64,000 bases of DNA from Sphingomonas suaedae (lineage in GTDB: Bacteria; Pseudomonadota; Alphaproteobacteria; Sphingomonadales; Sphingomonadaceae), in contig NZ_CP042239.1 of NCBI RefSeq assembly GCF_007833215.1, positions 2,602,001 to 2,666,000 of the forward strand, read 5' to 3'. This document shows, in pieces, positions 36,305 through 51,055 of this stretch (positions within the stretch are counted from its first letter, which is position 1; every line of letters begins with the position of its first letter). A program made the position numbers and the translations under genes. Under the pieces are notes generated by a model. That model was not told the origin of the DNA and did no database searches. It saw nothing but the letters and a program-made list of their open reading frames with translations.

Positions 36305-37786
36305 ATGAACCCCTCCGCCGATCTGGTGAACAAGCTCTGGCGCCTGTGCGCGCTGCTCCGCAAGGACGGTGTGACGTACCAGCAGTACGTCACCGAACTC
36401 ACCTATCTGCTCTTCCTCAAGATGGCGTCGGAGCAGAAGGATGAGAGCCGCATTCCAGAGGCCTATCGCTGGGGCGCGCTCAAATCGGCGAGCCAGACCG
36501 AGGTGCTTCAGCGCTACAAGCAGGCGCTGATGGACTTAGGCGACGGCACCAAGGTGGCCGATCGTTCGGTCGTCGCAATCTTTCAGAATGCTGCCACGAT
36601 CATCCGCACCCCCGCCAACCTCCGCCAGCTGGTCGACGCGATCGACGGGCTGCACTGGTACAGCGCCGATCGCGATGCGTTTGGTGACGCCTATGAAGGT
36701 CTGCTCCAGAAGATGGCGGAGGAGACCAAGCGCGGTGCGGGCCAGTATTTCACCCCGCGCACGCTGATCGAGGTGATGGTCGCCCTGATGCAGCCGCGTC
36801 CCGGTGAGGTCATTCAGGACCCGGCAGCAGGAACCGGCGGTTTCCTGATCGCCGCCAACAGCTTCATGAAGGCGGCGAGCGACGATTATTTCGAGCTCAG
36901 CCCGAAGCAACAGGCGTTCCAGCTGCAACAGGCGTTACGCGGCGTTGAGAATGTGCCCGACACCTTCCGCCTGCTGCTGATGAACCTGCATCTGCATGCG
37001 ATCGACCCGGACAATCTCGACCTCGCCGACACGCTGAGTCCGGCGGGCCAGCGTCCGCAGTTCAAGAATGCCGACCTGATCCTGACCAACCCGCCCTTTG
37101 GCCCGGCGGGTGGACCGCCGACGCGCGATGACCTGACCATCACCGATCGGGTGTCGTCTTATCAGCTGCCCTTTGTCGAACATTGCATCCGCGCGCTTCG
37201 GCTCGGCGGGCGAGCCGCGATCGTGGTGCCGGACAATGTCCTGTTCGATGACGGACGCGGCAAGCTGCTGCGCCAGCGGTTGATGAGCTGGTGCAACCTC
37301 CACACCATCCTGCGCCTGCCGACCGGCATTTTCTATGCCCAGGGGGTCAAGACCAACGTCCTGTTCTTCACCCGCGCGGATGAAGAGGCACCGACGCAGG
37401 ATGCCACGCGCGAAGTGTGGATTTACGACGCCCGGTCCGGCGCGCCATCCTATGGCAAGACCAACCCGTTCAAGGCCGAAGACCTGGCCGATTTCGTCTC
37501 CGCGTTCGGCGACGATCCCTTCGGCGGTGCACCCCGCACCGATCAGGGACCGGAAGGCCGCTTCCGCCGCTTCACCCGTGAGGAGATTGCCGCGCGCGCT
37601 GACAATCTCGACATCGCCTGGCTCAAGGACACCAGCGCCGACGCCGAAGACGGCCTCGACACGCCGGAGGATATCGCTGCCGCAATCGAGGGGCATTTGA
37701 AGGTGGCGCTGGAGGAGATTGCGGCGCTGGTGGCGGAATTGGAGAGTGATGTTAGCGGGCCTGCGATGGTGGAGGCAGCAGAGTGA
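36305..37786 (+). CDS. hsdM: Type I restriction-modification methyltransferase, M subunit
   Basis: This 493-residue N6-adenine methyltransferase modifies the host's target sites. The N-terminal domain reads NPSADLVNKLWRLCALLRKD; the catalytic domain has motif I IQDPAAGTGGFLIAANSF (about residue 170) and motif IV LILTNPPFGPAGG (about 260). All parts are intact. It overlaps hsdS by 4 bp (ATGA), as is usual. Confidence 0.95.
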   Translation: MNPSADLVNKLWRLCALLRKDGVTYQQYVTELTYLLFLKMASEQKDESRIPEAYRWGALKSASQTEVLQRYKQALMDLGDGTKVADRSVVAIFQNAATIIRTPANLRQLVDAIDGLHWYSADRDAFGDAYEGLLQKMAEETKRGAGQYFTPRTLIEVMVALMQPRPGEVIQDPAAGTGGFLIAANSFMKAASDDYFELSPKQQAFQLQQALRGVENVPDTFRLLLMNLHLHAIDPDNLDLADTLSPAGQRPQFKNADLILTNPPFGPAGGPPTRDDLTITDRVSSYQLPFVEHCIRALRLGGRAAIVVPDNVLFDDGRGKLLRQRLMSWCNLHTILRLPTGIFYAQGVKTNVLFFTRADEEAPTQDATREVWIYDARSGAPSYGKTNPFKAEDLADFVSAFGDDPFGGAPRTDQGPEGRFRRFTREEIAARADNLDIAWLKDTSADAEDGLDTPEDIAAAIEGHLKVALEEIAALVAELESDVSGPAMVEAAE

Positions 37787-39081
37787 CGCTGCCGGAAAGC
37801 TGGGAAACGATCCAACTCGCTGAGTGCCAAGCTAGAACCACTACTGTTGATCCACGGAAAGAGCCGCTCACAAAGTTCGACTTGTTCAGCGTCCCGTCCT
37901 ACTCTGACGCTACGCCGGACCAAGTGACGGGCGCGGATATCGGGAGCGCCAAGCAGGAGGTCGAGCCGGGCGACGTGCTCTTGTGCAAGATCGTACCGCA
38001 TATCCGCCGCGGTTGGGTCGTACCTCCCCCCTCGGGGCGAGCGCAGATCGCCTCAGGGGAGTGGATCGTATTTCGTGACACGCCGCTCGAACCTAATTTT
38101 CTGCGCCGTTTCGTCCTGTCTGACGAGTTCCATGATCAGTTCATGCGAACTGTTTCGGGGGTCGGTGGGTCGCTGATGCGGGCGCGCCCGGCGGAGGCAG
38201 GAAAGATCAAGGTCCCAGTGCCGCCTTTGGCCGAACAGCGCCGCATCGTCGCTAAGTTGGACGCGCTGACAGCCCGCCTCGCGCGCGCGCGGGCAGAACT
38301 GGACCGGGTACCGGTCCTGGTGAGGGATTTTCGAAAAAGGACACTCGGCCAAATGTTTGCCGGCGACTGGGCGAACGTGGTCGACCTAGGTTCGCTCACC
38401 CTGCCAAGCGCACCAATACGCTATGGCGTCCTTCAACCTGGAGGCGAAAAGGGCTCCGGTGTCCAGATGATCCGGGTCTGCGATCTTCACGATATGCAAG
38501 TTGCATGGCCTAGTCTTCGGCGGATAGCGCCCGAAATTGACAGGCAGTTTTCCAGCGCCCGCGTGCAAGATGGCGACGTTCTAATCTCTGTGGTCGGAAC
38601 CATTGGTCGTATCGCCGTGGTTTTTGGAATGAAAGAGCCCACCAATATCGCGCGAGCTGTCGCCAGGCTACGGCCGGATACGAGTAAGGTCCACCCTATG
38701 TGGCTCGCCTTGCGATTGGCGGCGGAAGATTGTCAGAAGATGTTCGCCGCGGATGCTCGCGAGGTAGCTCGCAAGACTCTGAATGTCTCGTTGATCAAGG
38801 CGACACCCATCGCGCTGCCCCCGTTATCTGTCCAAGCTGCGGCGGTCCGAACGCTCACCATCGCTTTCGCCCGCGCCGACCGTCTAGAAGCCGAAGCTGC
38901 GCGCGCCCGGGCGCTGATCGACCAGCTCGAGGCCGCCATCCTCGCGAGGGCGTTCCGCGGCGAGCTGGTCCCGCAAGACCCGAATGACGAGCCCGCCAGC
39001 GTCCTGCTCGACCGCATCCGCGCCGAACGCGCCGCTGCGCCCAAGGCGAAACGGGGACGACGCGCAAAGGCGGACGCATGA
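37783..39081 (+). CDS. hsdS: Type I restriction-modification specificity subunit
   Basis: This 432-residue subunit holds two target-recognition domains, each followed by a conserved helical spacer. The first spacer is PPLAEQRRIVAKLDALTARL (about residue 146) and the second is PPLSVQAAAVRTLTIAFARA (about 346), ending ILARAFRGELVPQDPNDEPA. The recognition sequence cannot be deduced. It starts in the hsdM stop and is followed by mcrB after 56 bp. Confidence 0.93.
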   Translation: MTLPESWETIQLAECQARTTTVDPRKEPLTKFDLFSVPSYSDATPDQVTGADIGSAKQEVEPGDVLLCKIVPHIRRGWVVPPPSGRAQIASGEWIVFRDTPLEPNFLRRFVLSDEFHDQFMRTVSGVGGSLMRARPAEAGKIKVPVPPLAEQRRIVAKLDALTARLARARAELDRVPVLVRDFRKRTLGQMFAGDWANVVDLGSLTLPSAPIRYGVLQPGGEKGSGVQMIRVCDLHDMQVAWPSLRRIAPEIDRQFSSARVQDGDVLISVVGTIGRIAVVFGMKEPTNIARAVARLRPDTSKVHPMWLALRLAAEDCQKMFAADAREVARKTLNVSLIKATPIALPPLSVQAAAVRTLTIAFARADRLEAEAARARALIDQLEAAILARAFRGELVPQDPNDEPASVLLDRIRAERAAAPKAKRGRRAKADA

Positions 39082-39137
39082 CGATCGTTAGGCGAGTGGG
39101 ACGCACGGGATAAGGTCGGCAAAGGGGGACAGAGAGG

Positions 39138-42053
39138 ATGCGTGACCGGGAGTTCCGCCAGTGGCTGGCGCGACGCGAGTATCAGGGGACACCGCTTACC
39201 GCGAAGGGCGTCAACAATCGCGCGCGCAAGGCACCCCGGATCGAACGCGCGCTGGCGGAGCTTGGCTTTGCCGAACGCGATCTGGACACACTCCACGCCA
39301 ATGGCCGCTGGCCCGCGCTGGTCGATGCGGTGCGGCGGGTCGCAGCGGACTGGCACGCGAACGAGGCCGCTGCGCGCAAGATGGCGCCCCAGGCACCGGA
39401 CCCGACGCGCCAGCTGACCAACCTGATCAACGTCGCGCGCCAATATGGCCATTTCGCCGATGGCAAGGACCCCAACTATGACGCCGGGGCCGACGCACCG
39501 GAAACGGACGAGATCGATCCCGCTGCGCTCGCGGCGTTGAAGGCCCGCTTCATCGCGGCCTATCCCAACTTCGAGCAGGAGGGTGGCTTTGGCGGTGATG
39601 GGGCGTATTTCCGGGATGAGGACGGCTACAAACGCGCGCTGGTAGCCAAGGTCGCGCCGCTGATCGCAGACCCCGCGCAAGATGAAGCCGCGCTGGGCGC
39701 TGCGCTGCTCGATCACGTCCTCGACAAGGATGTGAACCTGGTCGGGGACTATCGACGGCGCGGCCATATCGAAGCGGTTCGGGCGCGGTCGGGCGGCGCG
39801 CTGGAAGCGGCTGTTGGCGCGCTGGCGCGATCGAAAGCCCCGCCCCCGGAAGCGGCAGAGTCGTTCGTCAGCGCGGCGTGGGACCTGATCAAGCAGGGCA
39901 GCGAGCAGAGCATGCCCTATGCCGACATCCGGGTTCTCGCCACGCTGTTCCAGGCGCTTGCCCGCCCGTCCGAAGCAATCGCCGTCAACCATACCCGCTT
40001 CTACCATCTCGGCCTGGCGCTCTGGGGTAAGTCGATTTTCGGCAACAATCCGCTGACGGCCGCAGAATATGAAGCGGTGCTCGACCTCTCCGACAGCCTG
40101 TTCGACGCGATGGAGCAATGGGGCTGGGCGCCGCGCGACCTGTGGGACGCGCAGGGTTTCGTCTGGGTCACCTGCAAGGAGAAGCCAGACATGGATGGTG
40201 GACGGGACGCGGATCGAGTCCGTGACCATGCGCTCAAGACCTACATCGAGCCCGCACGTGCGCGCGGCGACGATCGCGTTTCGATCCGATGCGGCGACGT
40301 CCACAGCGCGCTGGGGCTTTCCGCCGCGCATGCGAATGTGTGCCAGGCGCTGCGCGGTCAGAAGTTTCAGAAGATGGCTGGCACGGGCGTTCCGACCTAC
40401 ACCGGCCCAGATAACAGTTCGACGACCACCTTCACTTACGAGTTAGGCGGCGCGTCTTTGGAAAGAACTGACGGTCCAGCGCCTACCAATCTGATCCTCT
40501 ATGGCCCGCCGGGTACCGGCAAGACCTACGCGACCGCTGCCGAAGCGGTGAAGCTGTGCGATGGTGAGGCACCGGATGGTCGCGCGGCGCTGATGGCGCG
40601 TTATCGCGAGCTCGAGACCGAGAAGCGGATCGTGTTCGTCACCTTCCACCAGAATTACGACTACGAAACCTTCGTTGAGGGCCTCCGCCCCGAAACGGGC
40701 GCGAGCGACGCCGAGGGCGCGTCCGCCGGGTTCCGGCTTGAACCGAGACCCGGCATATTCCGCGAGATCTGCGCTCTCGCCGAACAGGCACGCACGCGGT
40801 CGGCACCCTCGTCAGGTTCGATCAGCTACGATTTCTCCGGCCGGCGCTTTTGGAAGATGGGCCAAGGCGCAATCGGCAGCGAAGATGACGTCTATGACGC
40901 TGCAATTGCCAACAACTACATCGCGCTGGGTTGGGGTGGCTCCATCGACTGGAGCCCAGAGAGGTTTGCGTCGTTCGATGCGATCAAGGCAGAGTGGCTT
41001 GAACAAAACCCTGACGACCCAACGCCAAGCAACTGGACGCAGACCTGGCCTTTCCGTTCGGAGATGAAGGTCGGCGACATCGTCATCGTGCCCTATGGGA
41101 ACACCGCGTTTCGCGCGATTGCCGAGGTCACTGGCGAGTATCGCTACGAGCCGTCAGCCGAAGGCTATTATGCGCACCGCCGCGACGTTCGCTGGCTCCT
41201 CACGCTAGACGAGCCGCTGCCCCTTGATACGATCGTCGAGGGGAACTTCACCATGCGGACGTTGTATGCGCTCGCCAAGAAGCGGGTGAACCTACCGGCA
41301 TTGGGAAGGTTGATTGCTGGGGATAGCGACACCCCAGCGGAGACGGGGAGCGTCGCAACGCCGGAGCAATTCGTCCTCGTCATCGATGAGATCAACCGTG
41401 CGAACATCTCCAAGGTCTTTGGCGAATTGATCACGCTGATCGAGCGGGACAAACGTCTCGGCATGGGCAACGCGCTCACCCTGACGCTTCCCTACTCCAA
41501 AAAGCGCGATTTCGGCGTGCCCGCGAACCTTCACATCATCGGCACGATGAACACCGCCGATCGCTCGATTGCACTGCTCGACACGGCACTGCGGCGGCGG
41601 TTCCGGTTCAAGGAGCTGGCTCCGGACGAGACGCTTTTGCCTCAGAGCTCAGAGGGCATCCCGCTTCGCCAAGTCCTGCGGACGATCAACGACCGGATCG
41701 AGTACCTCATCGATCGCGAGCACCGCGTCGGCCACGCCTTCTTCATCGGCTGTGAGGACAAAGACGCTGTCGATGCTGTCATGCGCGACAAGGTGATCCC
41801 GCTGCTTCAGGAGTATTTCTTCGAGGACTGGAGCCGTGTGGCTGCGGTGCTCGGTGAGCCGAAGGGCAAGGGAGGCGGGTTCCTCGATTGCCGCAAGATC
41901 AAAGACCCGACCGGCGAAGGCGGCGAGGATCGTGAGAGCTGGAGTGTCCGTAAGACATTCGAGCTTGATGCCTATCGTCGCCTCGTCGGCAAGCCGGTCG
42001 AAGATGTGCCCGCGGAGGCGGACGAACTCGATGGCGCCGAGGACGAAGCATGA
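39138..42053 (+). CDS. mcrB: McrB-like AAA+ GTPase with inserted EVE/PUA-like domain
   Basis: This 971-residue protein is the motor of an McrBC-type modification-dependent restriction system. The N-terminal 440 residues are of unknown type. The AAA+ domain has Walker A LILYGPPGTGKTYATA (about 452) and FVTFHQNYDYETFVEGLRP. It is then interrupted by about 160 residues (about 559-717) beginning SISYDFSGRRFWKMGQG and including NNYIALGWGG and VGDIVIVPYGNTAFRAIAEV, which looks like an EVE/PUA-like base-reading domain. The AAA+ domain resumes with Walker B VLVIDEINRANISKVFGEL (about 750) and GTMNTADRSIALLDTALRRR. Start ATG 39138 has AGAGAGG upstream. It overlaps mcrC by 4 bp. Confidence 0.88.
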   Translation: MRDREFRQWLARREYQGTPLTAKGVNNRARKAPRIERALAELGFAERDLDTLHANGRWPALVDAVRRVAADWHANEAAARKMAPQAPDPTRQLTNLINVARQYGHFADGKDPNYDAGADAPETDEIDPAALAALKARFIAAYPNFEQEGGFGGDGAYFRDEDGYKRALVAKVAPLIADPAQDEAALGAALLDHVLDKDVNLVGDYRRRGHIEAVRARSGGALEAAVGALARSKAPPPEAAESFVSAAWDLIKQGSEQSMPYADIRVLATLFQALARPSEAIAVNHTRFYHLGLALWGKSIFGNNPLTAAEYEAVLDLSDSLFDAMEQWGWAPRDLWDAQGFVWVTCKEKPDMDGGRDADRVRDHALKTYIEPARARGDDRVSIRCGDVHSALGLSAAHANVCQALRGQKFQKMAGTGVPTYTGPDNSSTTTFTYELGGASLERTDGPAPTNLILYGPPGTGKTYATAAEAVKLCDGEAPDGRAALMARYRELETEKRIVFVTFHQNYDYETFVEGLRPETGASDAEGASAGFRLEPRPGIFREICALAEQARTRSAPSSGSISYDFSGRRFWKMGQGAIGSEDDVYDAAIANNYIALGWGGSIDWSPERFASFDAIKAEWLEQNPDDPTPSNWTQTWPFRSEMKVGDIVIVPYGNTAFRAIAEVTGEYRYEPSAEGYYAHRRDVRWLLTLDEPLPLDTIVEGNFTMRTLYALAKKRVNLPALGRLIAGDSDTPAETGSVATPEQFVLVIDEINRANISKVFGELITLIERDKRLGMGNALTLTLPYSKKRDFGVPANLHIIGTMNTADRSIALLDTALRRRFRFKELAPDETLLPQSSEGIPLRQVLRTINDRIEYLIDREHRVGHAFFIGCEDKDAVDAVMRDKVIPLLQEYFFEDWSRVAAVLGEPKGKGGGFLDCRKIKDPTGEGGEDRESWSVRKTFELDAYRRLVGKPVEDVPAEADELDGAEDEA

Positions 42054-43390
42054 CCCATCGCACGGTCCTTGAATGGGGCCGTGTCGAGGTCGGCGAGAGC
42101 GGGTTCAGTCGTCCTCAGGCCGATGCTCTTCTGGCCGCTGCACGGAGCCATGTGCTGGGCGGGAATGACGGGACGGATATTCTGTGCGACCACCATCGCT
42201 ACCTGCGCGCACGACAGGCGGTTGGCGTCATCGCTGCGCGCGGGTGCAGCCTCGAAATCCTGCCTAAGGTCGATGCCGGTCTGGAGCTGGCCGATCCGGC
42301 GGCAGTGCGGGCGCGGCTGGTGCACATGCTTGATGTCGCGCACGGTCTGAACCTCTCTTCCGGTGAAGCGACGGCGATGGCGCGTCGCGCCAACTCGCTG
42401 CTCGACATCTTCATCGCGCTGTTCGCAGACCGATTGCTGGCCGAAGTGCGGCGCGGATTACCCCGCCAGTATCGCTCAGAAGAGGACGATCTACGCGCGC
42501 TGCGCGGCAAGCTCGATGTGGTGCGCCAATTCACGGTCCATGCGGTGCGCCCGGACCGGTTGGCGTGCCGGTTCGACGCGCTCGATGGCGATACACCGCT
42601 GATGCGCATCATGAAGGCGTGCGTTCTGCTGCTGACGCGCCACGCGAAGGCGAGCAGCACCCAGAGGAAGCTTGCCGAGCTTCGCTTCCGGATGGCAGAT
42701 ATCAGCGACGTTCCGCGCGGATCGCTCCCGTGGAAGCAGGTTCGGATCGACCGATCCAGCCAACGATGGCGCGCACTGCTTCAACTTGCGCGCCTACTCG
42801 TCGGGTCGAGCTGGCAGCAAACGCATGCAGGAGCGGGCACGCCCGACGGCATCACGCTACTGTTCGCGATGAATGATCTGTTTGAGCGCTATGTGGCGGT
42901 CCAACTGCGTAAGGCGCTCGGCGACACGGATCTGACGGTCGATGCGCAAGGGGGCGGCGCCTATTGCGTCGGCCCGTGGATCGAGGGTGAAACCGTCGTC
43001 GGGAACAGCCACCCGACCCGGCCCGACATTCTCGTGAAGCACGAAGGACGGATCGTGGCCATCCTCGACACGAAGTGGAAGCCGGCCGAAAGGGGCGTGT
43101 CGCACGCCGACATCTATCAGATGATGGCCTACGCTCGGCTCTATGACTGTCAGCGTCTTGTCCTGCTGTACCCCGCCTCGGTTGGCGGCACGGGCGGAGC
43201 GATGACACATGGGCTAGCTGCCGGCGAAGACCGGCTCGACGTGGCAAACGTCGCGCTGAACATCTCCTCGTCGACTATCCGACAGGGGCTCCGCGAGCTG
43301 GTTATGACAATAGTCCCTCACGGGACCGGTGCGCCTTCGCAAGGCTATCGGTGGATTAACGCCGCTCCGCTTCCATCACCCGGACTCTGA
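42050..43390 (+). CDS. mcrC: McrC-like nuclease subunit
   Basis: This 446-residue protein is the nuclease partner of McrB. The N-terminal region contains RQAVGVIAARGCSLEILPKV, and the C-terminal PD-(D/E)XK core is TRPDILVKHEG..AILDTKWK (about residues 322-343), followed by DIYQMMAYARLYDC. It is intact, overlaps mcrB by 4 bp, and is the last gene of the island. The hsdRMS-mcrBC order suggests that all five are one defence block. Confidence 0.92.
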   Translation: MTHRTVLEWGRVEVGESGFSRPQADALLAAARSHVLGGNDGTDILCDHHRYLRARQAVGVIAARGCSLEILPKVDAGLELADPAAVRARLVHMLDVAHGLNLSSGEATAMARRANSLLDIFIALFADRLLAEVRRGLPRQYRSEEDDLRALRGKLDVVRQFTVHAVRPDRLACRFDALDGDTPLMRIMKACVLLLTRHAKASSTQRKLAELRFRMADISDVPRGSLPWKQVRIDRSSQRWRALLQLARLLVGSSWQQTHAGAGTPDGITLLFAMNDLFERYVAVQLRKALGDTDLTVDAQGGGAYCVGPWIEGETVVGNSHPTRPDILVKHEGRIVAILDTKWKPAERGVSHADIYQMMAYARLYDCQRLVLLYPASVGGTGGAMTHGLAAGEDRLDVANVALNISSSTIRQGLRELVMTIVPHGTGAPSQGYRWINAAPLPSPGL

Positions 43391-43887: not shown

Positions 43888-44901
43888 CTAGCGCCATTCG
43901 ACGCGATGTGTTCCGTCCGGCTGATCGCGGAACACGCCGCGGCGGCCGATGAAGCGTTCGATCACGTCGCGCGCGGTCAGGCTGTGCTGGCTTGGCTTGA
44001 CGGTGGTGAAGGCGCCCCCGCCCGCAAGCGCGAACGGCAGCAGGAGCTGGTCCTGCAGATACGGTCCGGCAAAGGCGTTCGACGCCAGATATCCGGCCAT
44101 GCGCCCTGCCGCCATCTTCGCCACGCGCTCGGCCGGGACGCCGAGCTGGCCAAAGCCGCTGACAATCTCGGTGACATGCTCGAACGCCGCCTCGATCAGC
44201 ACGATGTTGCCCGGCCCCTGCTCCTCGGGGAGCTGCCGCACCGCGAAACTCTCTTCCGGCCAATCCAGCGCCTTGCGTGCGGCGCCGATCTCCCGATCGG
44301 CGATCTCGAACGGCAGCGCGGCGAACATCGCCGTCACGCTGCGCTCATGCAGCGCCCCCCGCTCGACGCACGCGATCGGGGTAAGCGGCGCCGGGGTGAT
44401 CTCCACCTCGATCCGCCCGCCACCGCGCGGGTAGAAGCCGTGGCGGATCAACCGCGCCTCGACGGTCGGCCCCATGCGGTTGACGATCGGCAGGAACGTC
44501 TTCGCGATGAACTCGAACGGCGGGGCGAGCATGTTGTGCGTGCCGCCCTCCAGGATCAGGCGCGAGGGCGCATCGGAGAGCACGAGCGGCATCAGCAACG
44601 TCTGGAGCACAAGCCCCGTGCTCCCCGCCGTGCCGACCGCAAAGCGATATTCGCCGGGCACCACCTTGCCCGGCGTGAAGGTTATCTCGGACGCGCCGAC
44701 CGCAAGGTCTTCGCACGTCGCGTTGCCCAGCGCGCACGCGGCCTCGACCGCGGTGACATGCTGGCGCATCAGCCCTGGCTTGGACCGCTTGCCGCGCGCA
44801 TTGGTGATGCGGAACGGCTGGCCGGTGATCAGCGACAGCGCGCACGCATTGCGCACCACCTGTCCGCCGCCTTCGCCTTCCGATCCGTCGATGATGATCA
44901 T
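43888..44901 (-). CDS. rtcA: RNA 3'-terminal phosphate cyclase
   Basis: This 337-residue enzyme converts RNA 3'-phosphate ends to 2',3'-cyclic phosphates using ATP. It starts MIIIDGSEGEGGGQVVRNAC, the family's N-terminal signature, and continues with HVTAVEAACALG and GFYPRGGGRIEVEI. The catalytic His lies in TVKPSQHSLTARDVIERF near the C-terminus. ATG 44901 overlaps the stop of the upstream nucleotidyltransferase gene by 4 bp. It is the last gene of the rsr-RNA-rtcB-nucleotidyltransferase-rtcA transcription unit and lies about 200 bp from the island's right end. Confidence 0.94.
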   Translation of the reverse strand: MIIIDGSEGEGGGQVVRNACALSLITGQPFRITNARGKRSKPGLMRQHVTAVEAACALGNATCEDLAVGASEITFTPGKVVPGEYRFAVGTAGSTGLVLQTLLMPLVLSDAPSRLILEGGTHNMLAPPFEFIAKTFLPIVNRMGPTVEARLIRHGFYPRGGGRIEVEITPAPLTPIACVERGALHERSVTAMFAALPFEIADREIGAARKALDWPEESFAVRQLPEEQGPGNIVLIEAAFEHVTEIVSGFGQLGVPAERVAKMAAGRMAGYLASNAFAGPYLQDQLLLPFALAGGGAFTTVKPSQHSLTARDVIERFIGRRGVFRDQPDGTHRVEWR

Positions 44902-45698
44902 TGATTTACCAGTTCCAGAAAAAGGTCGTTGGCACGCGCCGCCCATATTGGGGACGGGGTGCGCACCGCGAGTTCGGCGGCGCGCCCCAGCTCGTCGGCG
45001 ATCAGCGCGTCGAGCAGCGGCACACGCGTGCCATTGCTGCGCTCGTTGGTCCGCGCCTTGGCCGCGACCAGCTCGGCGATCGCCGCCTCGGCTTGTGCCG
45101 ACAGATCCGCCAGCGCGACCAGCGCTTGAAGGTTCATCGGCGGACGCCGGTCGGGGTGGCGTCGCAGCACGCGAATCGCGAGTGCCGGACGCAGCGCATA
45201 GAAATACTTCTTCACCGCGACGTCGCCATCGCCGTCGAGCCAGCGGTCCGCCGCGGTCCGCCCCAGCCGCGCATAGTGATGCGCTAGTGCGCGGGCATCG
45301 AGCATCGCGTCGGCGAGCGCCGCGAACTTCGCCACGAACGGATCGTCGGGGCGATAGCGGATCGGCGATTCGATCCATTCGCTGACCACCGCGTTCGACT
45401 TAAGCAGCAGCCCGAACGCCTTGCGGATGTCCCAGCCGTTGAGGTCGATCTCATCGACGATCGGCCGCTCGATCACGTCGCGGCCCGGCGCCAGCGACAG
45501 ATACCAGTCGCGCGGGCGGACATAGATGAAGCGGATGTCGTAATCGCTGTCGGGCGAGGGAAAGCCCCAGGCGCGCGAGCCGGATTCGACCGCCATCAGC
45601 ACGCGCACGCCCTCCTCCGCCTCGATCGCGGACAGGCGATGCTCGATCTCGCGGCGCACGTCAGGTGCGATGCTGGGGTTCAGTTCCACGGTAATCAT
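44898..45698 (-). CDS. Nucleotidyltransferase-domain protein within the rtc operon
   Basis: This 266-residue protein has a DNA polymerase beta-like minimal nucleotidyltransferase at its N-terminus: AVESGSRAWGFPSPDSDYDI with RFIYV gives the GS and DxD motifs near residues 41-60. The C-terminal part is helical (RALAHHYARLGRTAADRWL, KKYFYALRPALAIRVL). It lies between rtcB and rtcA, overlaps rtcA by 4 bp, and so probably acts in the same RNA repair response. I chose ATG 45698 (MITVELNPS), since the longer frame runs into the REP-like repeat. Whether it adds nucleotides to RNA ends or modifies a protein is unknown. Confidence 0.8.
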   Translation of the reverse strand: MITVELNPSIAPDVRREIEHRLSAIEAEEGVRVLMAVESGSRAWGFPSPDSDYDIRFIYVRPRDWYLSLAPGRDVIERPIVDEIDLNGWDIRKAFGLLLKSNAVVSEWIESPIRYRPDDPFVAKFAALADAMLDARALAHHYARLGRTAADRWLDGDGDVAVKKYFYALRPALAIRVLRRHPDRRPPMNLQALVALADLSAQAEAAIAELVAAKARTNERSNGTRVPLLDALIADELGRAAELAVRTPSPIWAARANDLFLELVNQ

Positions 45699-45714
45699 CT
45701 CGTTTCTTCCTACC

Positions 45715-45804
45715 GTCATCCCCGCGAAAGCGGGGACCCATCTCCTCACCGCGCCAATTGGACGACAGTTCGGGAGATGGGCCCCCGCGTTCGCGGGGGT
45801 GACG
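45715..45804. repeat. REP-like inverted repeat pair
   Basis: Two hairpins in opposite orientation: CCCCGCGAAAGCGGGG at 45720-45735 and CCCCCGCGTTCGCGGGGG near 45782-45799, flanked by GTCATC and GTGAC and by the inverted pair CCCATCTCC / GGAGATGGG. This type of intergenic element is common in sphingomonads. It sits between rtcB and the nucleotidyltransferase gene, where it could stabilise or attenuate the transcript (inference). Confidence 0.8.
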
Positions 45805-45824: not shown

Positions 45825-47054
45825 TCACCCCTTGACGCACACCACCTGCTTCAGCGTGTGGACGATCTCCACCAGATCGGCCTGGGCGGCCATCACGGCT
45901 TCGATCGGCTTGTAGGCGCGCGGCGTTTCGTCGATCACGCCTTCGTCCTTGCGGCACTCCACGCCCATCGTGTCGGCGATATGCTCGTCGAGGCTCACCA
46001 GCTTCTTCGCCTCGGTGCGCGACATCACGCGCCCCGCACCGTGCGAACAGCTGTCGAAGCTCTCGGCATTGCCAAGGCCACGGACGATGAACGATTTCGC
46101 GCCCATCGACCCCGGGATGATCCCCATCACGCCCTTCGCCGCACGCACCGCGCCCTTGCGGGTCACGAGCACATTCTCACCGAAGTGGTTCTCGCGCTGG
46201 ACGTAGTTGTGGTGGCAGTTGACCGCCTCCATCTCCGCGTCGAACGGCTTGGCGATCTGGAGCCGCAGCGCCGCGATCACGTTCGCCATCATCACGCGCC
46301 GGTTCAGCGCGGCAAAGTCCTGCGCCCAGCCCACCGCCTCGACATAATCGTCGAAATGGTCGGTCCCTTCCGGGAAGTACGCCAGGTCCTCGTCGGGCAG
46401 GTTGATGTGCCATTTGCGCATATCCTGCTTCGCCAATTCGATGAAGAAGGTGCCGATGGCATTGCCGACGCCGCGCGATCCCGAATGGAGCATCACCCAC
46501 ACCCGCGCCTCCTGATCGAGACACAGCTCGATAAAGTGGTTGCCGGTGCCGAGCGTTCCGAGATGGACGAGGTTGTTCGTCTTCTCGAGCCGCGGATATT
46601 TGTCGGTGATCCGCTTGAACCGCGCGGCGAGCGTGGACCAGGCTTCGACGATGTGCGCCTGGGGATCGCCCCACGCGCCCTTGTCGCCGCGCCCGCCACG
46701 GCCGGTGGTGCGTCCGTGCGGAACCGCACGCTCGATCGCGCTCCGGATGCCCTCCAGATTGTCGGGCAAGTCATGCGCCATCAGCGAGGTGCGCGCCGCC
46801 ATCATGCCACAGCCGATGTCGACGCCGACCGCCGCCGGGATCACCGCGCCCTTGGTCGGGATGACCGAACCCACGGTCGCGCCGATTCCGACATGGACGT
46901 CGGGCATCGCCGCGACATGCTTGAAGATGAACGGCATCCTGGCCGCGCGCGCCAGCTGTTCGCGCGCCTTGTCGTCGACCGGCACGCCCCGGGTCCAGCT
47001 CTTGATCGGCACGCCGCCGTCGACGTGGCTGTATTCGAAACGCGTCTGGGTCAT
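45825..47054 (-). CDS. rtcB: RNA-splicing ligase RtcB
   Basis: This 409-residue GTP- and Mn-dependent ligase joins RNA 2',3'-cyclic phosphate or 3'-phosphate ends to 5'-hydroxyl ends. Family motifs are MPDVHVGIGATVGSVIPTKG, VGVDIGCGMMAARTSL with the metal-binding Asp and Cys, LHSGSRGVGN, and the guanylylated-His motif CSHGAGRVMSR. It is full length. ATG 47054 has GCAGGAG 7 nt upstream and lies 26 nt after the last Y-RNA-like gene, so it is on the same transcript as rsr and the RNAs. Confidence 0.96.
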   Translation of the reverse strand: MTQTRFEYSHVDGGVPIKSWTRGVPVDDKAREQLARAARMPFIFKHVAAMPDVHVGIGATVGSVIPTKGAVIPAAVGVDIGCGMMAARTSLMAHDLPDNLEGIRSAIERAVPHGRTTGRGGRGDKGAWGDPQAHIVEAWSTLAARFKRITDKYPRLEKTNNLVHLGTLGTGNHFIELCLDQEARVWVMLHSGSRGVGNAIGTFFIELAKQDMRKWHINLPDEDLAYFPEGTDHFDDYVEAVGWAQDFAALNRRVMMANVIAALRLQIAKPFDAEMEAVNCHHNYVQRENHFGENVLVTRKGAVRAAKGVMGIIPGSMGAKSFIVRGLGNAESFDSCSHGAGRVMSRTEAKKLVSLDEHIADTMGVECRKDEGVIDETPRAYKPIEAVMAAQADLVEIVHTLKQVVCVKG

Positions 47055-47080: not shown

Positions 47081-47184
47081 GCCGGCGACGAGGGTTGGCG
47101 AGACATTCCGGGCGAACCCGGGGTGGAGTCGAACCACCTGAGCCTTTCGGCCTTACCGATGTAGTCCCGCCGGCATTCGCCAGC
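47081..47184 (-). ncRNA. Y-RNA-like RNA D (shortest, T arm plus UUCG hairpin)
   Basis: This is the fourth and last RNA of the array, 104 nt. The closing stem is GCTGGCGA (47184-47177) with TCGCCGGC (47088-47081), including one G-U pair. The shared block GGCGAATGCCG-GCG-GGACTACAT follows at 47181-47159. The tRNA-like part has a T arm GGTGG-TTCGACT-CCACC, and where the others have a D arm it has a compact hairpin CCGGG-TTCG-CCCGG. It lies 26 nt before rtcB. Confidence 0.72.
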
Positions 47185-47195
47185 TTGTTTGATGG

Positions 47196-47332
47196 TCACG
47201 GCGACGAAGGGTGACCGGACGGTTACGCGCTCTGCCGCTGAGCTACGGGCCCCCAATGGTGGACCCGGCGGGATTCGAACCCGCGACCTCGGGATTAGCA
47301 GTTCCATGTAGTCCGGTCGGCATTCGCCGTGA
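47196..47332 (-). ncRNA. Y-RNA-like RNA C with circularly permuted tRNA
   Basis: This RNA is 137 nt. A perfect 9-bp closing stem pairs TCACGGCGA (47332-47324) with TCGCCGTGA (47204-47196), and the shared block is at 47328-47306. Inside, the halves of a tRNA are in swapped order: first an anticodon-like hairpin with loop CTGCTAA, a T arm GCGGG-TTCGAAT-CCCGC, the 3' acceptor strand CGGGTCC and CACCA; then the 5' acceptor strand GGGCCCG and a D arm GCTC-AGCGGCA-GAGC. The acceptor strands pair over 7 bp with one G-U. This is the clearest tRNA mimic of the four. Confidence 0.82.
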
Positions 47333-47340
47333 TGTTCGTG

Positions 47341-47431
47341 GGGCGACGAGGGAATGGTGGACATGCTCTACCGCTGAGGCAGGGCGGGATTCGAACCCGC
47401 GACACCCATGTAGTCCAACCGGCATTCGCCC
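47341..47431 (-). ncRNA. Y-RNA-like RNA B
   Basis: This RNA is 91 nt. The closing stem is GGGCGA with TCGCCC (6 bp), and the shared block GGCGAATGCCG-GTT-GGACTACAT is at 47430-47408. The tRNA-like part has the T arm GCGGG-TTCGAAT-CCCGC and directly after it a D-arm-like GCCTCAGCGGTAGAGC. It is separated from RNA A by 12 nt and from RNA C by 8 nt. Confidence 0.78.
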
Positions 47432-47443
47432 TGTGAATAGGTT

Positions 47444-47602
47444 GGCCGTGGCGACGAGAATCGGTGAGACAGCGCGTCCTTAAGCTACCTCCAGCGGGCG
47501 GGATTCGAACCCGCATCTCCCCGGTGCCTTGCAGCAGTCGGGGCGCTTTGCCCATAGGGACTCTCTGTGGTGGATGTAGTCCCACCGGCATTCGCCACGG
47601 CC
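47444..47602 (-). ncRNA. Y-RNA-like RNA A (longest)
   Basis: This is the first RNA after rsr, 159 nt, starting 4 nt past the rsr stop. The closing stem is a perfect 11-bp pairing of GGCCGTGGCGA (47602-47592) and TCGCCACGGCC (47454-47444). The shared block is at 47596-47574, and its last part can form a hairpin GGTGG-GACTACAT-CCACC. A T arm GCGGG-TTCGAAT-CCCGC is followed by a weak D-arm-like GGTAGCTTAAGGACGCGC. Confidence 0.8.
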
Positions 47603-47606
47603 TTGT

Positions 47607-49157
47607 TCAAACCTCCGTCTGCTTGACGGTGCTGACCCAGTCGCGCGTCTCGCCACGGGCGAAGCGTGCGACGGTGTCGAACACCGCGTCGGAGAAGCCC
47701 CCGACATTGAGAATGTCCGCCCGACCGGAAGCCTGGGTGGTTCCATAGGGCTGGATGTCGATGCACACGAGCTTTGCGCTCGGGTTGCGCCGCTTGATCT
47801 TGTCCCACTGGCGCATCGTCTCGGTCGCGCCGCGGCGGTTCTGGTCCACCCACGACTCATTGTCCGACACGATCACCACCAGGTCGACCGCCGCATTCTC
47901 CGCCACCAGCTGCGCCAGCGGTGCCGACACGCTCGTGCCGCCGCCGCCAACCGCCGCCAGCTTTGCCGCGTTGACGGCAAGCCGCGCACGCGGATCAAGG
48001 TTCAGGCGCACCACGCGCTGCTCGAACGGCAGCACCCGGGCCTTCGCATTGGTCCGCAGCATCGCCGAAGCGACCAGAGCGGCAATGTCGATGCAACGCA
48101 TTTTGGTCGTGGCGCCCTTGCGGACCCCGGTGACCGGCGAGCTCATCGACCCCGACACATCGGGGCAGACGACCACATTGCCGCGGATCGCGGGCACGTT
48201 GCGCAGCGACGCTTCCAGCGCATCCTCCAGCGCCCCCTGAACCTTCAGCGGCACGCCGTCCCCGGCCGCGTTGAGCGCCATCAGCACCTGATAGGGCAGC
48301 ACGCGCGCCTTGGTCAGCGCTTCGGCATCGGCGAGCCGTTCGGCGACGCGCTCGGTCACCCCCTTCACCCCGAACGCGCCATTGCGCGCCAGCGTGTTGA
48401 GGTTGATCCGCAGCGCCTGCCACCCCATCCGCCCGGCCAGCTCGCCCCACTGCACATCGCGCAGCGGAAAGGCGGTGAGCCATTCGAACGGCACCGGCGG
48501 CAGCGCGATCCCGCGTGGGTTGCGCTTCCACGTCTCGAACGCGGCGATCTCGGCCGGGAGCGCGGCGACATCATAGGGCTTGCCGATCAGCCAGCCATAA
48601 AATGCGCGCCGCTCCGCGTCCGCAGGCTTGGGGTGCACCATCCGCACGATGTCGGCGAGCGAGGGCGCATTGCCCGTCGCAGCCGCCATCAGATCGCGCA
48701 TCGACGCCTGCTCCAGCCAGCGCTGGACCAGCCGCTTCGGACGCGACCCGAGCGAGGTGCGCCCGACCTGACCCGAGCGCAGGATCTGCACGAAGTTGCG
48801 CAGCATCCGGCCATTGTCGATCACGCGGCCAAAGACGCGGACCGACAGATCGGGATCCGCGACCGTCAGCCATGCGGCAATCAGCGCCGGCATGTCCTTC
48901 ATTGCCCCCGACTTGCGGGCATAGACCGCGACCTGCGCCGCATAGAACGGGTCGACCGCGTTAAGCGCGTCGAGCATCTGCTTCAGCTGCGCTTCGGCGG
49001 ATGCGTAATAGGCGTCACCCATCGTGCCGGTCGCCGCAAGCTGCGCGAGCAGCGCTTCCGGCCCATAGGCATAGGCCGGCGCGTCCTCCCGGTTCACCGT
49101 GTCCGGTGCCGGAAGCAGCTTTGCGATCGCCGAAGCGAACAGTCCCTTGTTGGCCAT
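47607..49157 (-). CDS. rsr: Ro60/Rsr TROVE-domain RNA-binding protein
   Basis: This 516-residue protein is a bacterial Ro60. The N-terminal TROVE domain of helical repeats (about residues 15-300) would form the ring that binds Y RNA and misfolded RNA ends; typical segments are YGPEALLAQLAATGTMGDAYY and RDLMAAATGNAPSLADIVRM. The C-terminal von Willebrand A domain has an intact MIDAS motif, CPDVSGSMSS, near residue 330. I chose ATG 49157 (MANKGLFAS) with AGGGAG upstream; the longer frame has no similarity. It is the first gene after the sigma-54 promoter and is followed by four Y-RNA-like genes and rtcB, as in known rsr-yrl-rtcBA loci. Confidence 0.93.
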   Translation of the reverse strand: MANKGLFASAIAKLLPAPDTVNREDAPAYAYGPEALLAQLAATGTMGDAYYASAEAQLKQMLDALNAVDPFYAAQVAVYARKSGAMKDMPALIAAWLTVADPDLSVRVFGRVIDNGRMLRNFVQILRSGQVGRTSLGSRPKRLVQRWLEQASMRDLMAAATGNAPSLADIVRMVHPKPADAERRAFYGWLIGKPYDVAALPAEIAAFETWKRNPRGIALPPVPFEWLTAFPLRDVQWGELAGRMGWQALRINLNTLARNGAFGVKGVTERVAERLADAEALTKARVLPYQVLMALNAAGDGVPLKVQGALEDALEASLRNVPAIRGNVVVCPDVSGSMSSPVTGVRKGATTKMRCIDIAALVASAMLRTNAKARVLPFEQRVVRLNLDPRARLAVNAAKLAAVGGGGTSVSAPLAQLVAENAAVDLVVIVSDNESWVDQNRRGATETMRQWDKIKRRNPSAKLVCIDIQPYGTTQASGRADILNVGGFSDAVFDTVARFARGETRDWVSTVKQTEV

Positions 49158-49291
49158 CGTCCAACTCCCTTGGTCAGACACCCATTGGCGCCCGTTTGAA
49201 ATTCCTCGGGGGCGACCAGCCCATTCCGGTCGCCCCGCGTTCCGCGTGCCGGGTGGAAGGTTCGACCGCTTCCATTCGACACGGATAGCTT

Positions 49292-49307
49292 TGCAGGAGC
49301 CGTGCCA
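49292..49307 (-). promoter_or_regulatory. Sigma-54 promoter for rsr-RNA-rtcBA
   Basis: On the minus strand the sequence TGGCACGGCTCCTGCA matches the -24/-12 consensus (TGGCAC, then TGC) with correct spacing. It lies about 135 bp upstream of the rsr start and is divergent from rtcR, a sigma-54 activator. Transcription would start near 49281. An AT-rich stretch at about 49340-49365 could provide DNA bending. Confidence 0.85.
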
Positions 49308-49437
49308 GTTTGGTGACATAATGACGCGAGATCATTGAACATACTGATATATAATGATTTAAAGTCGCCAAACGAGGGATGGTGGGCGACGAGCGGCATT
49401 CACAAGTGCTGAAGATTCATATCGCTATGGATCGCAT

Positions 49438-49455
49438 CTTATCCTACAGGATAAG
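49438..49455. promoter_or_regulatory. Palindrome, candidate RtcR binding site
   Basis: A perfect inverted repeat, CTTATCC-TACA-GGATAAG, lies directly before the rtcR start and about 130 bp upstream of the sigma-54 promoter. That is the usual distance for an enhancer site of a sigma-54 activator, and its overlap with the rtcR ribosome-binding region suggests autoregulation. RtcR as the binder is inference. Confidence 0.5.
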
Positions 49456-49456
49456 C

Positions 49457-51055
49457 ATGAAACCACTGGTAGTGATCGGCTTTCTCGGCTCCACGCTCGA
49501 TGCCAGCAAGTTCGGGCCATCGCGTTGGGGCAAATGGCGTCCCTCGGTCGCGCTGACGATGCATGAGGATCTGCGCGTCGACCGCTTCGTGCTGCTCCAC
49601 GGCAGCAAGCATGGCCGCCTCGCCGACTATGTCGCGGAGGATATCGCGTCGGTCTCTCCCGAAACGCGGGTCGAGCCGCAGCGGATCGAGTTCACCGACC
49701 CGTGGGATTTCGAGGAGGTGTACGGCAAGCTGCTCGATTTCGTGCGCGGCTATCCGTTCGATCCGGAGGCCGAGGATTATCTGATCCACATCACCACCGG
49801 CACGCACGTCGCGCAAATCTGTCTCTTCCTGCTGACCGAGGCGCGCTATCTGCCGGGCCGATTGCTGCAGACCCAGCCTGCGGCCAAGCTGGAGAGCGGG
49901 AGCGCGCCGGGGCGCTGGACGGTGATCGACCTCGATTTGTCGCGATATGACAGCATCGCGACCCGCTTTGCGGCGGTCAGTGCGGAGAGCGCCTCGTTCC
50001 TCAAATCCGGGATCGAGACGCGCAACGCAGCCTTCAACCGCATGATCGACGAGATCGAGCGCGTCGCGCTGCGGTCCAAGGCGCCGATCCTGCTGATGGG
50101 GCCGACCGGGGCCGGCAAGAGCCAGCTGGCGCGGCGCATCTATCAGCTCAAGCGACTCAAGCACCAGGTCGCCGGACCGTTCGTCGAGGTCAACTGCGCG
50201 ACGCTCAAGGGTGACGGCGCGATGTCGGCGCTGTTCGGCCACCGCAAGGGCGCGTTCACCGGCGCGGTCGCCGACCGTCCGGGCCTGTTGCGATCGGCCG
50301 ACAAGGGCATGTTGTTCCTCGACGAGATCGGCGAACTGGGCCTCGACGAGCAGGCGATGATCCTGCGCGCGATTGAGGACAAGCGCTTCCTGCCGGTCGG
50401 TGCAGACAAGGAGGCGGCTTCGGAGTTCCAGCTGATCGCGGGGACGAACCGTGACCTGGGCGAAGCGGTGGCGAAGGGTGCATTTCGCGACGATCTCTAC
50501 GCGCGTCTCAACCTGTGGACCTTTCGCCTGCCCGGACTTGCCGACCGGCGCGAGGATATCGAACCCAATCTCGACTATGAGCTCGACCGCTTTGCCGAAC
50601 GCGAAGGGGACCGCGCCAGCTTCAATCGCGAGGCGCGGCAGCGCTACCTTGCCTTTGCCACCGGACCCGATGCGCACTGGCCGGGCAATTTCCGCGACCT
50701 CGCCGCGAGTATCACCCGCATGGCGACGCTGAGCCCCAAGGGACGCATCGACAGCGAATGCGTCGACGCGGAGATCGATCGGCTGAGACGCCTGTGGTCG
50801 GGACAAGCCGGAGCCGATACCGACCCGCTGACAGGCCTGCTGCCCCCGGAAGCGCTGGACGCGATCGACCCGTTCGACCGCGTGCAGCTGGCCGAAACCG
50901 TGCGCGTCTGCCGTCGCAGCCGATCGCTCTCCGAAGCTGGCCGCGCACTCTTTGCCGCGTCCCGTGCACGGCGCAGTTCCGCAAACGATGCCGATCGGCT
51001 GCGAAAGTACTTGGCACGGTTCGGGTTGGATTGGGCCAGCGTCCGATCCAACTGA
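49457..51055 (+). CDS. rtcR: RtcR, sigma-54-dependent activator with CARF domain
   Basis: This 532-residue regulator turns on RNA repair genes. The N-terminal CARF-type domain (about 1-180) starts VVIGFLGSTLDASKFGPSRW and includes DYLIHITTGTHVAQICLFLL; in known RtcR proteins it senses RNA ends such as cyclic-phosphate tRNA fragments. The AAA+ domain has Walker A MGPTGAGKSQLARRIYQLKR (about 213), the sigma-54-contact loop GAFTGA (about 264) and Walker B MLFLDEIGELG (about 284). A short helix-turn-helix ends the protein. I chose ATG 49457 (MKPLVVIGF), the usual RtcR start, over 49379. It is divergent from rsr. Confidence 0.94.
   Translation: MKPLVVIGFLGSTLDASKFGPSRWGKWRPSVALTMHEDLRVDRFVLLHGSKHGRLADYVAEDIASVSPETRVEPQRIEFTDPWDFEEVYGKLLDFVRGYPFDPEAEDYLIHITTGTHVAQICLFLLTEARYLPGRLLQTQPAAKLESGSAPGRWTVIDLDLSRYDSIATRFAAVSAESASFLKSGIETRNAAFNRMIDEIERVALRSKAPILLMGPTGAGKSQLARRIYQLKRLKHQVAGPFVEVNCATLKGDGAMSALFGHRKGAFTGAVADRPGLLRSADKGMLFLDEIGELGLDEQAMILRAIEDKRFLPVGADKEAASEFQLIAGTNRDLGEAVAKGAFRDDLYARLNLWTFRLPGLADRREDIEPNLDYELDRFAEREGDRASFNREARQRYLAFATGPDAHWPGNFRDLAASITRMATLSPKGRIDSECVDAEIDRLRRLWSGQAGADTDPLTGLLPPEALDAIDPFDRVQLAETVRVCRRSRSLSEAGRALFAASRARRSSANDADRLRKYLARFGLDWASVRSN

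Follow-up and report, generated by a model that had tools for sequence, protein, structure and literature searches.

Four predicted tandem Y RNAs in a Sphingomonas RNA-repair operon and the tRNA imitations on their common Ro stem

The tRNA mimicry of bacterial Y RNAs is known in a single layout, and arrays like those described here make it testable why one cell has several such RNAs. At least one Y RNA per species is said, in Chen et al. 2014, to have a tRNA-like domain. As far as the excerpts of the sources cited here go, YrlA is laid out as a circularly permuted tRNA (PMC11472068), it is modified by DusA and TruB (PMC8394870) and PNPase is bound by Rsr and YrlA (PMC9879122). The rsr-yrlBA-rtcBA operon of Salmonella is turned on by 5′ tRNA halves with a cyclic phosphate that bind RtcR; in the same excerpt, fragments of YrlA are described as undetected and the authors suggest that YrlA may inhibit an anticodon nuclease (PMC7790460). 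The literature that we found, again in excerpts and with the central survey by Chen et al. 2014 outside its scope, names no more than two Y RNAs in an operon and shows the anticodon-arm layout only. Multi-unit arrays may already be in print; what is new here is what the constant stem is predicted to carry, that is, different tRNA imitations and an alternative graft into the D loop.

The operon and its four units

The genome under study has 4.15 Mb in one contig. The window, that is, the whole 64-kb stretch of DNA that was analysed, holds a minus-strand operon in the order rsr, four Y RNA units, rtcB, rlaP and rtcA, with rtcR divergent. rsr (Ro60; 47607..49157, minus strand) was identified by Pfam PF25045 and PF05731 (vWA_Ro60, TROVE); its start was set at the ATG at 49157 in keeping with the alignment of relatives, and the open frame extends to 49319. 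The RNA ligase gene rtcB (45825..47054, minus; PF01139, E 4.8e-128) is followed by the nucleotidyltransferase gene rlaP (44898..45749, minus; PF10127, E 5.5e-80) and the RNA 3′-phosphate cyclase gene rtcA (43888..45378, minus; PF01137, E 3.6e-69); the bounds of the last two are those of the open frames, and the RtcA domain begins only at residue 168 of its frame. The divergent activator gene rtcR (49379..51055, plus; PF06956 and PF00158) completes, with rtcB and rtcA, the set that marks an RtcR-controlled RNA-repair operon. The consensus of sigma54 promoters is TGGCAC-N5-TTGC, and a site with one mismatch, TGGCAC-N5-CTGC, lies at 49293..49307 on the minus strand; a site of the same kind was found at 28 of 36 loci. 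At 49209..49236 (minus) the rsr leader has a conserved, GC-rich hairpin with a GGAATGGGC-type loop, which recurs in 22 of the 36 leaders searched, with two matches elsewhere. Paired changes occur in loci L024, L025 and L043, such a hairpin is also present in L014, and Rfam gave nothing above cut-off at the hairpin of the window. Beyond rtcA, a likely defence island borders the operon (37783-43390, plus) with McrC (Pfam McrBC) and two genes named by eye, one for type I restriction specificity and one for a McrB-like GTPase.

An earlier note, made from the letters of this DNA, had placed four copies of a block, GGCGAATGCCG-N3-GGACTACAT, on the minus strand at 47596-47574, 47430-47408, 47328-47306 and 47181-47159. 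All four are indeed perfect over 23 bases; the pattern was absent from every one of 100 dinucleotide shuffles, and a fifth block is absent from the 64-kb window even with three mismatches allowed. The unit bounds, lengths, closing stems and distances given in that note were reproduced: the array begins 4 nt past the stop codon of rsr, the Ro60 orthologue expected to adjoin Y RNAs, its spacers are 12, 8 and 11 nt, and it ends 26 nt before the ATG of rtcB. The T arm that had been claimed for every unit was found in four of four.

Unit 1 (47602-47444, minus; 159 nt; class A) is closed by a perfect 11-bp stem and scores 27.0 bits with the Rfam YrlA model; it has the Ro stem within a split D stem, an extra helix, a hairpin and the T arm (row 1 of alignment A2). 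Unit 2 (47431-47341, minus; 91 nt; 6-bp closing stem; 46.3 bits) is a damaged class I unit: its acceptor and D arm are impaired and it is 12 nt shorter than unit 2 of the sister strain Sphingomonas sp. R647. Unit 3 (47332-47196, minus; 137 nt; perfect 9-bp stem; 68.2 bits) is of class I, with a T arm, a 7-bp acceptor and a complete D arm, and its Ro stem stands where a tRNA has the anticodon arm (row 1 of alignment A3). Unit 4 (47184-47081, minus; 104 nt; 8-bp stem with one G-U; 35.8 bits) is of class III, in which two hairpins flank the T arm and a D arm is lacking (15-row alignment A4).

The covariance search proposed earlier gave a divided answer. The YrlA model matched all four units (E 0.015 to 1.9e-14), but all scores are below the 69-bit cut-off, so that the units are not filed as members of RF02553; searched against the whole genome, the model gave three matches, all within the array and unit 1 not among them. 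Single-sequence folds are weak, with z = −1.43, −0.57, −1.43 and −2.12 in the order of the units, and for units 1 and 3 the fold of lowest energy departs from the tRNA-like model. Such folds are not usable as proof of structure, and the case therefore rests on covariation among relatives. The exact blocks and the two-sided changes in the Ro stem agree with the core expected of Y RNAs. Judged by the YrlA matches and the covariation sets described below, the four units are predicted to be bacterial Y RNAs in a tandem array; as had been proposed, their stem on the Ro side, which has a bulge, is constant and their insides vary.

Related arrays and the place of the Ro stem

Matches to Ro60 are patchy: they were found in 16 of 298 genomes of the family, 8 of 385 of the class, 12 of 398 of the phylum and 5 of 369 of a second class, in overlapping sets that also count the genome of the window itself, distant homologues and pieces. 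Ro60 is also encoded on plasmids (63 of 72,556 records, for example in Novosphingobium, Methylosinus and Rhizobium). Forty-six Ro60-bearing loci were sampled, the plasmid and phage loci being four picked from 63 and 334 records. In the 38 loci with an array, RtcR is divergent in 36 and RtcB is next in 31; in the seven without RtcB the sequence covers at most 1,500 nt past rsr. The gene for Ro60 in phage Mx1 (L046) has no block beside it, and the locus gives one weak match to the class II model described below, overlapping a tRNA-Ile gene. A metagenomic viral contig (L042:6546-7009) encodes a Ro60 50% identical to that of the window, and two Y-type blocks come after it, together with a tRNA-Asn gene.

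Units were counted in 36 loci, after omission of L017, which repeats the units of L006; L026, whose contig breaks off within rsr; L046, which has no block; L010 and L093, which have pieces of rsr but no array; the distant homologues L033, L040 and L041, likewise with no array; and L091 and L092, which have two and four blocks. Two units were found in two arrays, three in five, four in 15, five in 11, six in one and seven in two. Four is thus the commonest number in this group, and the suspicion that an array of four is unusual was not borne out. A fuzzy form of the block matched 154 times within the arrays, which span 41,184 nt, and four times in 403,888 nt elsewhere. A mechanical rule sorted the 154 units into 52 of class I, 39 of class III, 24 without a T arm, 20 of class A and 19 of class II, with some misfiled: unit 2 of the window went to class III, and unit 7 of both L036 and L037 to class I, although by eye these two are D-loop grafts of a Leu-type tRNA. 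Class I stands alongside class A or II in 26 of the 36 loci. Conservation in related genomes is seen in the 154 units of 36 loci, with covariation in three classes.

In class I the T arm is followed by loop-joined acceptor strands and a complete D arm, and the Ro stem sits where the anticodon arm would be. This is, on the predicted structure, the known YrlA layout, a permuted tRNA whose anticodon arm has given way to the Ro stem. In an alignment of 21 units (20 distinct), picked by eye for similar length from 46 listed units, 98.3% of the cells are paired and two-sided changes are found at 11 of 24 pairs. Six of these belong to the seven acceptor pairs, and the 7-bp acceptor played no part in choosing the rows.

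Class II is arranged differently. After the Ro stem comes the D stem's 3′ strand, with a short hairpin at the anticodon position, the variable stretch and the T arm behind it; an acceptor with a small closing loop, the D stem's 5′ strand and the closing Ro strand complete the unit. The two D strands flank the Ro stem, which therefore sits inside the D loop. The alignment comprises 17 of the 19 units filed by rule (unit 5 of L020 and unit 5 of L031 were omitted); 98.6% of its cells are paired and 15 of 30 pairs show two-sided changes, including pairs of the hairpin and the T arm. The 100% pairing of the split D stem is not independent, since the selection rule required that stem, and the acceptor was left uncounted because MAFFT moves it by one column in some rows. 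The columns of U8 and A14 are invariant, as are most bases of the D stem, and all 17 units have GG directly ahead of the 3′ strand of that stem. The window has no copy of class II; the sister strain has one, its unit 5.

Class A also has the D stem split by the Ro stem, as AAGC/GCTT or, in L024 and L025, ATGC/GCAT, and contains an extra helix GGTCC/GGACC with the variant GGCCC/GGGCC. All 20 units were aligned; 94.5% of the cells are paired and two-sided changes occur in 17 of 34 pairs. For classes I, II and A, none of 500 shuffles scored as high on any measure; shuffles ignore relatedness, whereas slid controls keep it and score far lower. In class A, signs of a crossing acceptor helix of four bases are no more than suggestive: the helix is paired in only 72.5% of cells, and in a swap test the value of 72.5 compares with a mean of 50.3 (none of 2000 as high), with relatedness uncontrolled. 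Based on these alignments, the Ro stem is predicted to join the imitated tRNA at the anticodon arm in class I and within the D loop in classes II and A.

The D-loop grafts probably cause an underestimation of Y RNA numbers per genome, since they fall under the Rfam cut-off in the loci tested: of 72 units in 15 related loci, nine pass the YrlA cut-off, all of class I, and none of the 24 units of classes A and II does. A covariance model of class II (R1), from which the acceptor is absent for the reason given, scored at least 44.9 bits in 15 of 16 rsr-bearing genomes of the family, the sixteenth having a contig that ends in rsr, and in one of 282 genomes without rsr. It also gives 42.7 bits to tRNA-Phe genes of two other genomes, which adds to the support for the tRNA likeness of class II, and matches with E ≤ 0.001 (rough E-values; 11 candidates scored per genome) occur in 150 of 298 genomes. 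Three matches outside rsr genomes were inspected; two were tRNA-Phe genes and the third was a single YrlA-type unit in genome G011 (L104:4868-4992; 72.8 bits with YrlA). It lies between rtcR and rtcB in an operon of the order rtcR, Y unit, rtcB, rlaP and rtcA, with RtcR and RtcB named by eye from open frames, and the genome has no match to rsr. This may be a Y RNA that works without Ro60, or a remnant.

Two phage-labelled records that resemble enterobacterial host DNA (L107 and L108) carry YrlB (105.5 bits), YrlA (70.9 bits) and a third Y-type unit (L107:923-1035; L108:1076-1188) with 31.7 bits for YrlA, below the cut-off, 44.8 bits for R1 and a fold z of −2.92. The statement in the earlier note that known loci have one or two Yrl RNAs does not hold for these fragments. 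The three-unit stretch had no match in E. coli genomes (near mode) or plasmids (distant mode).

A tRNA gene stands just upstream of rsr, on the same strand, in five loci (ARAGORN; L006:4917-4993, L014:2762-2839, L016:3062-3139, L018:1430-1507 and L024:1404-1479). It was called tRNA-Pro(UGG) in four and left untyped in L006; the best match of all five among the tRNAs of the window genome is tRNA-Pro(UGG), at 68 to 83% identity. The D loop lacks the usual GG in L006, L016 and L018, and the anticodon loop of L006 is shortened. In L013 a tRNA-Pro gene (831-908; ARAGORN) lies between the last Y unit and rtcB, with 77% identity to tRNA-Asp and 73% to tRNA-Pro of the window genome. The window has no tRNA gene of either kind. 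Possibly, such a gene near rsr provides an inducible spare or bait tRNA.

Turnover of units and their tRNA types

The nearest named relative by Ro60 is the sister strain R647 (L004; 96% identical). Over the last 1,500 nt of rsr the DNA of the two is 95.3% identical. Unit 3 agrees at all 135 bases compared, and unit 4 has been rewritten but still has its hairpins. Unit 1 of the sister retains the Ro stem but not the inside, and the fifth unit of the sister is missing from the window. Units change singly while the Ro stem stays. The damage in unit 2 and the loss of whole insides between sisters indicate that not every inside is strongly constrained.

It could be argued from this that only the Ro stem matters, that more units simply mean more of a gate or stabiliser for Ro60, and that the insides are drifting leftovers. 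The inside lost from the sister's unit 1 around a retained Ro stem, the damaged unit 2 and the 24 of 154 units without a T arm by rule would all be expected then. However, the insides covary, at six of seven acceptor pairs in class I and on both sides of the hairpin and the T arm in class II, and the complete identity of unit 3 contrasts with the divergence of rsr. We consider this explanation unlikely.

The imitated tRNAs appear to be of different types. Among the matches listed, tRNA-Phe of the window genome is the best match for nine of 17 class II units, and tRNA-Leu for unit 7 of L036, unit 7 of L037 and unit 2 of L015; Leu also ranked first for several class III units among the matches listed, with scores near the shuffled level. 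Unit 3, compared with host tRNAs in permuted order, scored 60 (tRNA-Ala), 59 (Val), 54 (Lys) and 51 (Ala), and 33 to 37 in linear order. An origin of unit 3 as a recent copy of one host tRNA is not supported by these scores against the tRNAs of the window genome.

Possible function and comparison with known systems

On balance we favour the view that one Ro60 dock presents several tRNA-shaped adaptors or decoys during tRNA damage. The earlier note had suggested one binding site with several decoys or adaptors; the predicted anatomy fits this, and the graft points and tRNA types sharpen it. The units would be cut out of the operon transcript and bound by Rsr via the common stem, in which case one Ro60 ring could present several tRNA-shaped adaptors. 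Points against this view are the weak single-sequence folds, the YrlA scores below the cut-off, the uneven constraint on the insides and the Y RNA of G011 in a genome with no rsr match. No unit ends in CCA, and the layouts of classes I, II and A keep no normal anticodon arm; such RNAs should escape both charging and cutting by anticodon nucleases. They might dock enzymes that read the tRNA elbow, such as modification enzymes, PNPase and perhaps RtcB. Alternatively, while tRNAs are being damaged and RtcR is activated, they could serve as decoys that enzymes attacking tRNA are unable to cut.

It is tempting to speculate further that the Ro60/repair operons of Pseudomonadota form a library of tRNA decoys, with one handle, two graft points and Phe-like, Leu-like and other types, whose units are gained, lost and rewritten one by one as in an arms race with nucleases; the tRNA-Pro-like gene upstream of rsr in some relatives, which has an anticodon loop, would possibly be a cuttable bait that feeds the RtcR signal. 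This extension is rather doubtful.

A different role would follow if the units were a set of tethers that tie PNPase to Ro60, with insides that tune which structured RNA is degraded and a tRNA resemblance whose only use lies in stability or modification. Joint roles of PNPase with Rsr and Y RNAs are indeed described, in the excerpts at hand, for the complexes of Deinococcus and Salmonella (PMC4726728, PMC8394870, PMC9879122). Tethering alone, however, leaves the two graft points and the differences in tRNA type unexplained, as well as the linkage to RtcR (36 of 38 loci) and RtcB (31 of 38), and we regard it as improbable. That the units are real or decayed tRNA or tmRNA genes is very improbable: Rfam gave 32.3 bits for tmRNA over units 2 and 3 and 31.3 bits for permuted tmRNA, but both are under the 47-bit cut-offs, the first straddles two units and the pieces sit within covarying Ro stems. 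ARAGORN found no tRNA or tmRNA gene at the array, and the acceptor strands are joined by a loop, with no free CCA end.

If one Ro60 dock does present several tRNA-shaped RNAs, the shared handle with its varied graft point and tRNA type would be a useful tool, since single swaps could reveal the tRNA enzyme of each RNA.

The closest described RNA is YrlA (RF02553; YrlA of S. Typhimurium, PDB 6CU1). The array resembles it in the Ro stem with its GCGAATGC core, in the position next to rsr and rtcB and, in unit 3, in the T arm, acceptor and D arm in circularly permuted order. Unit 3 comes closest and has the YrlA layout, unit 2 has it in damaged form, and units 1 and 4 are laid out otherwise. In contrast to YrlA, classes A and II have the Ro stem in the D loop, and unit 4 lacks a D arm. 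YrlB (RF02565) is a short Ro-stem RNA without a T arm that stands beside YrlA; units like it are found in many arrays, whereas none of the four units of the window is of this kind, all carrying a T arm. The rsr-yrlBA-rtcBA operon of Salmonella, as excerpted from the published descriptions (PMC7790460, PMC9879122), shares the divergent rtcR, a sigma54-type site, here a candidate with one mismatch, and the succession of rsr, Y RNAs, rtcB and rtcA. The operon of the window differs from it in the number of Y RNAs, which is four against two named there, and in the presence of rlaP between rtcB and rtcA.
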